A stretch of 64,000 bases of DNA from Wenzhouxiangella limi (GTDB lineage: Bacteria > Pseudomonadota > Gammaproteobacteria > Xanthomonadales > Wenzhouxiangellaceae): positions 1-64,000 of the forward strand of contig NZ_JAAGSC010000031.1 of the NCBI RefSeq assembly GCF_010499265.1, written 5' to 3'. The notes below the pieces were generated by a model. That model was given only the letters and a program-made list of their open reading frames with translations, was not told where the DNA came from and ran no database searches. Position 1 is the stretch's first letter, and every line of letters begins with the position of its first letter. The translations under genes and the position numbers were made by a program. Positions 16,047 to 20,834 of this stretch are shown in pieces.

Positions 16047-17186
16047 TTGTCTCGACTGCAGGCAATACTGGCGCTGGAAGACGGTCGCACGTTTTCCGGC
16101 CATGGTTTCGGTGCGCCCGGCCAGCGCGTCGGCGAGGTGGTATTCAACACCGCCATGACCGGGTATCAGGAAATCCTCACCGATCCCAGCTACGCCAGGC
16201 AACTGGTGACGCTGACCGCCTCGCACGTGGGCAATACCGGCGTCAACGCGCTGGATCCGGAGTCGGACCGGGTCTACTGCAACGGCCTGATCGTGCGGCA
16301 CTATCCGCGGCGCTACAGTTCCTGGCGGGCGCAAGCCTCGCTGTCGGACTACCTGGCCGACCACGGCGTGCCCGGTATTGCGGGCCTGGATACCCGCAGC
16401 CTGACCATGCATTTGCGCGAGCACGGGGCCCAGAACGGCTGCCTGATGGTGGGCGAGGAGGTTGATGCTGACCAGGCGCTGGGGCTGGCGCGCGGCTGCG
16501 AGCCCATGGCCGGTCAGGACCTGGCCAGTGGCGTGACCTGTTCGTCGCCGTATGCCTGGACCGAAGGCGCGCTGGATTTGTCCAGCGGTCGCTTCGGGCC
16601 CAGCCGTGGGCGTCATCACGTCGTCTGCTACGACTTCGGCGCCAAGCGCAACATCCTGCGCATGCTGGTCGACGCCGGCTGCCGGGTGACCGTGGTGCCG
16701 GCCCGCCACCCGATCGACGGCCTGCTGGCGCTGCAGCCCGACGGCGTCATGCTGTCGAACGGCCCGGGCGACCCCGAGCCCTGCACGTACGCCATCGACG
16801 CTATCGCCCGCCTGCTCGAGCGCGGCGTACCCACCTTTGGCATTTGCCTGGGCCATCAGCTGCTGGCGCTGGCGGCCGGCGCGCGAACGGTCAAGATGAA
16901 GTTCGGCCACCACGGCGCCAACCATCCGGTCAAGGACCTGGCTACCGGCCAGGTGCTGATCACCAGCCAGAACCACGGTTTTGCCGTCGACGAGGACTCG
17001 CTGCCCGAGCACGTTGTCCCCACCCACCGCTCGCTGTTTGACGGCAGCCTCCAGGGCATCCGCATCGACGGCAAACCCGCAATGGGCTTCCAGGGCCACC
17101 CCGAGGCCAGCCCCGGCCCGCACGACCTGCGCGGCCTTTTCGGCCAATTTGTAAAGATGATTGAAACCGCAGATGAACGCGGATGA
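16047..17186 (+). CDS. carA: Carbamoyl-phosphate synthase small (glutaminase) subunit
   Basis: 379 residues from TTG 16047, chosen because GGAGG (16033-16037) is correctly spaced and the protein then begins [20 protein letters not shown]. The class I amidotransferase triad is present: Cys in FGICLGHQ (about 267), and His and Glu in [12 protein letters not shown]. It hydrolyses glutamine and feeds ammonia to CarB for arginine and pyrimidine synthesis. Its last seven codons and stop lie within the left inverted repeat of the GxxExxY cassette, so the native C-terminus may have been changed by insertion. Confidence 0.96.
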
Positions 17187-17195
17187 ACGCAGATG
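17165..17195 (+). repeat. Left inverted repeat of the carA-carB cassette
   Basis: 31 bases made of roughly three tandem GCAGATGAAC-like units (GCAGATGAAC, GCGGATGAAC, GCAGATG). It is the inverse of 17563-17593 with only two mismatches, which swap the A/G variants between units. It encodes the last residues of CarA and the start codon of the GxxExxY gene. Confidence 0.95.
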
Positions 17196-17557
17196 TGAAT
17201 GCTTTGACGGAGCGAGTCATTGGCTGCGTCTACGCCGTAAGCAATGGACTGGGTGCCGGCTTTCTGGAATCGGTCTACGAAAATGCTCTGGCATTGGAAT
17301 TGGCGGCTGCCGGGATTTGCTTTCAGCGACAGAAATCACTTCGAGTCTATTACGCTGGGGAAGTGGTCGGGCAGTTTGCTGTAGACCTCCTTGTCGAAGA
17401 TTGCGTACTGGTCGAACTCAAGGCGGTTCGTGCGTTGCTGCCAGAGCATCAAGCCCAGCTGATCAACTACCTGAAAGCTGCCCGACTCAGCGTCGGCTTG
17501 CTGGTCAATTTCGGTACGCCGAAAGCCCAGATCAAGCGCATGGTCCACCAGCTATGA
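17183..17557 (+). CDS. GxxExxY-family protein
   Basis: 124 residues. The name-giving motif is [11 protein letters not shown] (about 25-35), followed by [22 protein letters not shown], then ELKAV, and the C-terminal [20 protein letters not shown]. The family has a PDDEXK-nuclease-like core (E...D...ELK) but no demonstrated function that I know. The ATG overlaps the carA stop and lies in the left repeat; transcription from the carA promoter is likely. GC content is lower than in carA and carB. Confidence 0.88.
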
Positions 17558-17562
17558 ACTTG

Positions 17563-17593
17563 CATCCGCGTTCATCTGCGTTCATCTGCGGTT
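17563..17593 (-). repeat. Right inverted repeat of the carA-carB cassette
   Basis: 31 bases, inverse of 17165-17195 with two mismatches. It ends 10 bases before the carB ATG and leaves carB with an A-rich leader (TTAAAAAATCTC) lacking a clear Shine-Dalgarno sequence. Confidence 0.95.
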
Positions 17594-17603
17594 AAAAAAT
17601 CTC

Positions 17604-20830
<3,227 letters not shown>

Positions 20831-20834
<4 letters not shown>

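Follow-up and report, generated by a model that had tools for sequence, protein, structure and literature searches.

The essential carbamoyl-phosphate synthase genes carA and carB of Wenzhouxiangella limi are separated, in the window studied here (the whole stretch of 64,000 nucleotides that was analysed), by a small gene of the GxxExxY family lying between two inverse repeats, hereafter arms. This arrangement raises the question of whether the gene and its arms belong to one system and, in that case, how such a system is maintained. GxxExxY proteins (PF13366) occur in many phyla and are named by their motif only; the arms provide them with a candidate substrate that can be tested.

Structure of the carA-carB cassette

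The locus is composed of the following features:

16047..17186, + strand: carA, carbamoyl-phosphate synthase small subunit (open reading frame; same-genus junction comparison)
17165..17195, + strand: left arm, three tandem units of about 10 bp, AACC GCRGATGAAC... (inverted-repeat search)
17183..17557, + strand: GxxExxY (PDDEXK_3) gene, 124 aa (open reading frame; TIGR04256 and PF13366 profile matches)
17563..17593, - strand: right arm, matching the left arm in inverse orientation at 29 of 31 positions
17604..20834, + strand: carB, carbamoyl-phosphate synthase large subunit (open reading frame)

The arms, of 31 nt each and with 367 nt between them, are complementary at 29 of 31 positions (94%) and enclose a single open reading frame (17183-17557), in agreement with the initial annotation, which had described 31-bp inverse ends made of tandem units around one gene. 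The left arm codes for the C-terminus of CarA (..ETADERG) and, by comparison with same-genus junctions, has overwritten the 3' end of carA; it also contains the carA stop codon (17184-17186) and, overlapping it as ATGA, the cargo start codon at 17183. The right arm ends at 17593, 10 bases ahead of the carB ATG at 17604. Both boundaries had been proposed beforehand, the left end as the last codons and stop of carA joined to the cargo ATG and the right end as stopping 10 bases before carB, and both were confirmed. Since the inverted-repeat score of the cassette (26.0) lies well above that of 20 shuffles of one flank (10.5 at most, row L015) and since its units recur through the genome, the cassette with its inverse tandem-unit arms is real and not a product of chance. 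An intervening sequence of the 23S rRNA type was considered and rejected, the site being the carA-carB junction and no Rfam match being present in 17000-17800.

The encoded protein

The 124-aa protein matches TIGR04256 with 147.1 bits (cut-off 35) and PF13366 with 141.5 bits (cut-off 22), and no other profile matched it. In an alignment of 76 sequences, 75 of them from the best 80 of 564 loci, G26/E29/Y32, D68, E78-x-K80, Q92 and Y96 are invariant; five loci were left out, L111, L122, L153 and L161 by the stop/length filter and L167 by hand. An AlphaFold (AF2) model built with this alignment reached a pLDDT of 95.6 and replaced a model made without alignment (pLDDT 36.7). Its nearest fold is Cas4 (SSO0001), and the predicted core is of the Cas4/RecB-like PDDEXK type; the search for relatives in the PDB by sequence gave a best E value of 0.44, taken as none. 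The earlier view of an unassigned PDDEXK-like core is thus retained for its PDDEXK part, the fold being now assigned as Cas4/RecB-like. The modelled RecB-like PDDEXK core is what the protein would share with Cas4/RecB-type nucleases (SSO0001, 4ic1). It differs from Cas4 by its length of 124 aa, by having no cysteine in any invariant or near-invariant column of the same 76 sequences (from the best 80 of 564), hence none of the invariant cysteines of an Fe-S cluster, and by its neighbours, which are carA and carB instead of cas genes. The dN/dS of the gene is between 0.05 and 0.15 in the five of ten pairs where it could be computed, values that are rough because dS is 1.6-2.4 or saturated.

Arms at GxxExxY genes elsewhere

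The idea of a mobile unit would have been weakened if GxxExxY genes elsewhere lacked such repeats; they are, on the contrary, commonly armed, each with its own sequence type. An inverted-repeat score of at least 16.5 was obtained for 24 of 27 rows from the own and related genomes, the shuffles giving 12.5 at most. These rows, scored out of 29 (L032 and L033 are the second pieces of two broken genes), include the own gene; 25 of them come from the genus and two from different families within the order. The three rows below this value are L013, cut by a contig end, L018, from another family, and L017, where units flank both sides in a single orientation. Among further rows, 8/9 (7/8 genes) scored at least 16, the failing one (L248) being near a contig end. 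The arm types encountered include CGCAGATGAA, CACAGATGAA, GCAGATT, CACCGAA (for instance at L031), CGCAAAG, CACAGAG, CACGAAG and CGCCAAG.

In the genome collection, 51 of the best 80 of 564 confirmed stretches scored at least 14. When only loci with full flanks are taken among these best 80, arms were found in 49/71 and were lacking at this threshold in 22/71, compared with 1 of 240 control windows from the same loci. According to record titles, the armed hosts among the best 80 of 564 belong to Pseudomonadota, Planctomycetota, Acidobacteriota, Verrucomicrobiota, Chloroflexota, Spirochaetota, Cyanobacteriota, Bacteroidota and Methanosarcinales archaea. All three GxxExxY genes on viral contigs are armed (scores 21-26). 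On plasmids, arms were detected at two of six loci, the other four falling below threshold, and in the four annotated records of the six the gene and both neighbours are co-directional. Transport by phages was rejected as a candidate, no GxxExxY match being present in 50,697 phage records, with three loci on viral contigs. By longest open reading frames, the 51 armed loci (best 80 of 564) are oriented 16 ++, 12 -+, 8 +- and 3 --, 12 lacking a neighbour; because this method misplaced the strand of both neighbours at the own cassette, the counts speak, outside the genus, neither for nor against a location within operons. In the open literature, with preprints and most subscription papers lying outside the scope of the search, no account of GxxExxY genes flanked by repeats of this kind was found.

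Two individual loci can be mentioned here. In a Methanosarcinales locus (L104:674-1033) the arms are reversed, with their outer AACC ends facing the gene, and differ in this from the other loci viewed by eye. At a GxxExxY gene of Verrucomicrobia (L144) the ends are 62 nt long with a difference at a single position, perhaps as the result of a recent copy.

The arm family in the own genome

With a 561-bp query, 41 alignments were obtained in the own genome, 40 of them arm-sized, most arm sites being counted twice as both arms match each site. The unit pattern has 29 forward and 33 reverse matches, compared with 0 for the reversed pattern. Inspection of 21 loci (two of them below threshold) gave 11 inverted pairs, cassette included, and nine single arms, so that 19 arm sites exist besides the cassette: 10 gene-less inverted pairs and 9 single arms. 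The GxxExxY gene itself is single-copy. As read from the sequence, each arm consists of three tandem direct units and is not a palindrome. Among the neighbouring genes are presumably hisF-hisI, guaB-guaA, rpmA-obg, gltB/gltD-like, sufB-sufC and nuoM-nuoN. Beside one single arm (L050, contig C35 of G000, position 220760) lies a second gene ending in ..TADERG-stop, like carA, which we take to be enoyl-CoA-hydratase-like. Given this second case, arms can rewrite C-termini.

The carA-carB junction in relatives

Readable carA-carB junctions were obtained for 21 of 27 cases, G016, G021, G044, G004, G023 and G020 not being resolved. The intact cassette is present in five of the 21 (G000, G002, G015, G018, G024) and a decayed copy in G045. 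In G009 the junction contains a CACGAAG element with no gene, and in G013 a cassette with GGGACCA-like units that carries a four-helix-bundle gene (TIGR02436, 121 bits). The remaining 13 have no such element, some of them bearing other short repeats (in G022, a CACGAAG-like stretch). The gene is therefore not a constant feature of the site in relatives; its constant presence would have spoken against mobility. Among the junctions of relatives, neither a transposition event nor a clean recent empty site was found, and a base-exact empty-site boundary was not obtained from the carA-carB, guaB-guaA and rfbA junctions, where relatives are too rearranged or diverged.

The minimal mobile unit proposed initially is consequently upheld in part. 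Its ends recur and its gene is not fixed at the site; the gene is, on the other hand, single-copy and common to five species at this same place. Since the dispersed units are gene-less arm pairs and single arms, a population of the REPIN/RAYT type describes the data better than one minimal transposon.

Arms and dispersed repeats in relation to the protein

Loci with more similar proteins also have more similar arms, with a Mantel rho of 0.63 (p 0.001) over 21 rows of the own and related genomes scoring at least 19 and of 0.30 (p 0.001) over 45 loci scoring at least 16 from the best 80 of 564. The 858 cross-phylum pairs give a rho of 0.27 (p 0.001), phyla being assigned by hand from titles and each of three unknown phyla treated as distinct. 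Recognition could underlie this correlation, as could a long shared descent; in both cases the protein and its arms are bound together.

The pattern CRCRGATRAACRCRGAT (AGATGAA) was scanned with up to 1 mismatch in 30 same-genus genomes. In the seven genomes with a gene of this type, 7 to 113 matches were counted (G000 58, G002 94, G015 113, G018 96, G024 105, G003 74, G010 7), and in the 23 without it 0 to 99, 11 having 0 and 8 having 1-21. The four others are G021 (44), G011 (76), G001 (85) and G005 (99); no intact gene of the type was found in any of them, G011 and G005 being 99% and 88% complete, and G001 and G021 only 65% complete. The presence test gives p 0.0006 for the 30 genomes and p 0.004 for the 15 that are at least 90% complete, with genomes that are not phylogenetically independent and are in many cases incomplete. 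Low numbers were counted in G013, a close relative where the gene is absent (8 matches), and in G045, where it is decayed (6). In G003 the arms of the gene and nearly all listed AGATGAA matches are of the CAC subtype. For the CACCGAA pattern, the two genomes with the gene type have 216 and 180 matches and the others 82 at most (p 0.011, 30 genomes); for CGCAAAG, the association with gene type reaches p 0.002 (30 genomes). Gene types were labelled by hand, G041 and G042, with CGCAAAG-like arms, being counted as without the CGCAAAG type and the GCAGATT-armed genes L009 and L250 being kept out of the AGATGAA type. Outside the genus, 18 genomes from the best 80 of 564 show a weak association of the CACAGAG pattern with arm type, with 70, 9, 4, 18, 16, 12, 3 and 34 matches in armed genomes of the type and 0, 0, 18, 0, 6, 0, 5, 0, 29 and 18 in the ten with other or no arms; the 70 matches belong to Ramlibacter sp. 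Leaf400 (L156).

These scans suggest that dispersed repeats tend to follow the type of the resident gene, with G011, G005 and the two less complete genomes G001 and G021 as exceptions and with few repeats in G010 in spite of its gene; the high completeness of G011 shows that such exceptions are real. Together with the protein-arm co-variation, the scans lend indirect support to the initial suggestion that the ends may be recognised by the protein whose gene they enclose.

The pair G003 and G010 deserves a separate remark. The two genomes are 92.5-93% identical at carAB and rfbA and carry the same cassette, with 74 dispersed matches in the one versus 7 in the other. Recent spread, loss or assembly gaps could account for this tenfold difference; in a 110-kb sample of G010, no further site orthologous to a G003 element was found.

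Evolution of the gene-less elements

In G000, G002 and G003, 38 gene-less elements were compared; their spacers measure 74-109 bp in 28, 10-38 bp in 5 and 118-238 bp in 5. The 35 spacers longer than 25 nt (the three of 25 nt or less being left out) are unrelated to each other except for matches of 11-16 nt. Direct flanking matches of k 2-8 are no commoner at the 38 elements than in re-paired flanks, giving no sign of a target-site duplication. Both neighbours could be called for 30 short elements; of these, 26 are flanked by co-directional genes, 4 by convergent genes and none by divergent genes.

Nine pairs of orthologous sites could be aligned. Between G000 and G002, which have the same type, L178/L258 and L041/L272 have similar arms and unalignable spacers, and in L052/L259 and L056/L269 one partner keeps a single or worn arm only; L181/L261 was the fifth pair aligned between these two genomes. 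A switch of type is seen in G003, where CAC arms occupy sites having CGC arms in G000 (L042/L280 and two sites of L050/L276). A hybrid element of G003 (L278), orthologous to L264 of G002, has one CGC-type and one CAC-type arm. Nesting also occurs, with elements of the CACNGAA type lying within others of the CGCNAAG type in G003 (twice in L288, once in L289 and once in L291), G012 (L320) and G042 (L327, L336), and homologous interiors exist in G012/G042 (L323, L336, L330).

Arms within an element resemble each other no more than arms of different elements (638 versus 649 expected, n 25; 361 versus 363, n 13), so the sequence code is what is kept, and not the pairing. Within the otherwise fixed arms, one base of the linker and the second R of CRCRGAT are free to vary and are often unpaired. 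A hairpin or RNA constraint as main force on the arms was ruled out by this lack of within-element matching. Structured spacer RNA was likewise set aside, the mean folding z over the 38 spacers being -0.5 against simple shuffles (four of them below -2.5), with no Rfam match at the cassette.

Four-helix-bundle cassettes

The gene replacing GxxExxY at carA-carB in G013 has counterparts on plasmids, where 9 of 10 four-helix-bundle (TIGR02436) loci, sampled out of 25 records, score at least 14 for inverse ends, one of the nine lying barely above its shuffles; one viral contig has the same arrangement. Their design is alike, a small gene between inverse tandem-unit ends. It is carried by an unrelated protein and by other units (GGGACCA, GGGAGTA, GGTGACA and others; loci L069:1-518, L361, L368-L377), 7-8 bp long versus 8-10 bp at GxxExxY genes. 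Three of the 10 plasmid loci are situated inside cyanobacterial CRISPR-cas operons, twice at cas6-cas4 and once at cas10-cmr3.

Proposed mechanism and alternative explanations

We favour, with a probability of roughly 0.55, a two-part repeat system comparable to REPIN/RAYT, selfish or domesticated, and run by a minimal nuclease of the Cas4/RecB PDDEXK type. The cassette would comprise the gene of this predicted nuclease and, on either side of it, an arm of about three tandem units of 8-10 bp, the two arms being inverse to each other. The enzyme would recognise the unit sequence, bind the arms and cut or nick them, acting also in trans on elements that lack the gene but have these arms, separated by unrelated DNA of usually 75-110 bp and sometimes less or more. 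Copying and homogenising of the arms would then proceed by cut-and-repair from another element instead of by a classical transposase, and operon junctions would be the places where insertions survive. Cut-and-repair at single arms fits the hybrid element and the lack of relation between spacers better than transposition of whole elements does; the nesting and the shared interiors in G012/G042 indicate that whole elements were inserted too. Because DNA joining is not an activity expected of a PDDEXK nuclease on its own, the model requires host factors. One step further, and only tentatively, these repeats could form a separate mobile-repeat class, in which a lone Cas4/RecB-like nuclease reads a tandem-unit code and copies or overwrites arms throughout the genome without transposase, the four-helix-bundle proteins running a parallel system of 7-8-bp units. 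Such transposase-free copying would explain the species-type arms at orthologous sites, the drifting spacers and the few arms left after loss of the gene.

The strongest rival makes the gene a passenger, the ends being spread by an unlinked recombinase or by replication and recombination with GxxExxY and four-helix-bundle genes as cargo. It owes this rank to the four-helix-bundle genes, which stand in the same design on nine of the ten plasmid loci and take the very place of GxxExxY at carA-carB in G013; the excess of gene-less arm sites over genes in the own genome and the abundance of repeats in G011 and G005, where a matching intact gene was not found, are also in its favour. However, a passenger would not be expected to have arms whose sequence tracks its own across phyla, nor dispersed repeats that tend to match the resident gene, and the ends of the two families differ in unit sequence and length (7-8 versus 8-10 bp) as if each had its own code; we consider this explanation unlikely. 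Still less probable is a fully domesticated regulator, in which the arms would serve the protein as operator-like binding sites between operon genes, their match to it being kept by selection alone. The low dN/dS of the gene, its single copy in the own genome and the position of the sites between operon genes suit this role, whereas each change of type would require a concerted switch at many sites (CGC in G000, CAC in G003 at the same sites), the nesting and homologous interiors of G012/G042 point to movement, and the nuclease residues are invariant. We give the least credit to an action at the RNA level, in which the arms would pair within the operon transcript to give a stem that is processed, for example by RNase III, in the manner of rRNA intervening sequences, and the elements would be kept as operon punctuation. 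Arms of about 30 nt could indeed form a stem, co-directional neighbours predominate (26/30, with no divergent case) and four of 38 spacers are more stable than their shuffles; yet the arms of one element match no better than those of different elements, the free positions are often unpaired, and neither the spacers as a set (mean z -0.5) nor the Rfam search at the cassette gives evidence of a structured RNA.

If the nuclease-driven system is correct, an enzyme type other than HUH would join the systems that maintain dispersed bacterial repeats, and the system may account for a large group of short tandem repeats in inverse orientation between bacterial genes, such as CACAGAG, CGCAAAG and CGCAGATGAA. 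In bacteria and archaea, and on a few viral contigs, many GxxExxY genes are bracketed by a sequence that their protein may read, and would thus offer many natural protein-target pairs for understanding how a minimal Cas4-like nuclease reads DNA.

Comparison with known systems

MITEs are short inverse-ended non-coding elements having their ends in common with a coding element, and they can be nested. The gene-less elements are alike in their short, inverse-ended and non-coding nature, in sharing ends with a coding element and in their nesting; unlike MITEs, they give no sign of a target duplication, no transposase of a known type is present in the cassette, and their interiors are mostly not homologous (with L323/L336/L330 of G012/G042 as exceptions). 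The REPIN/RAYT systems are closer. In the published descriptions (PMC3116915, PMC8049555), the gene is flanked by repeats of its own type, gene-less inverse pairs are dispersed, and several types exist, each with its own gene, repeats being commoner where the gene is present. The GxxExxY gene flanked by its repeat and the dispersed gene-less inverse pairs of several types, few in number where the gene has been lost, correspond to this scheme. The RAYT is described there as an IS200-like tyrosine transposase, whereas the protein here is a predicted PDDEXK nuclease with no IS200/IS605-like (HUH) match; REPs are palindromic, whereas the arms are made of tandem direct units around spacers mostly unrelated to each other. 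Because the enzyme and the repeat design differ, the system acts like REPIN/RAYT and is not a member of it.

Contents of other junctions

The guaB-guaA (L185-L214) and rfbA (L294-L305) junctions differ in nearly every readable same-genus genome. They contain genes that we take, by eye, to be toxin-antitoxin-like, unrelated genes, and arrays of the other short units TTCAGGG, ACACTTC, AACGAACC and GAGTCCC, including some inverse pairs.
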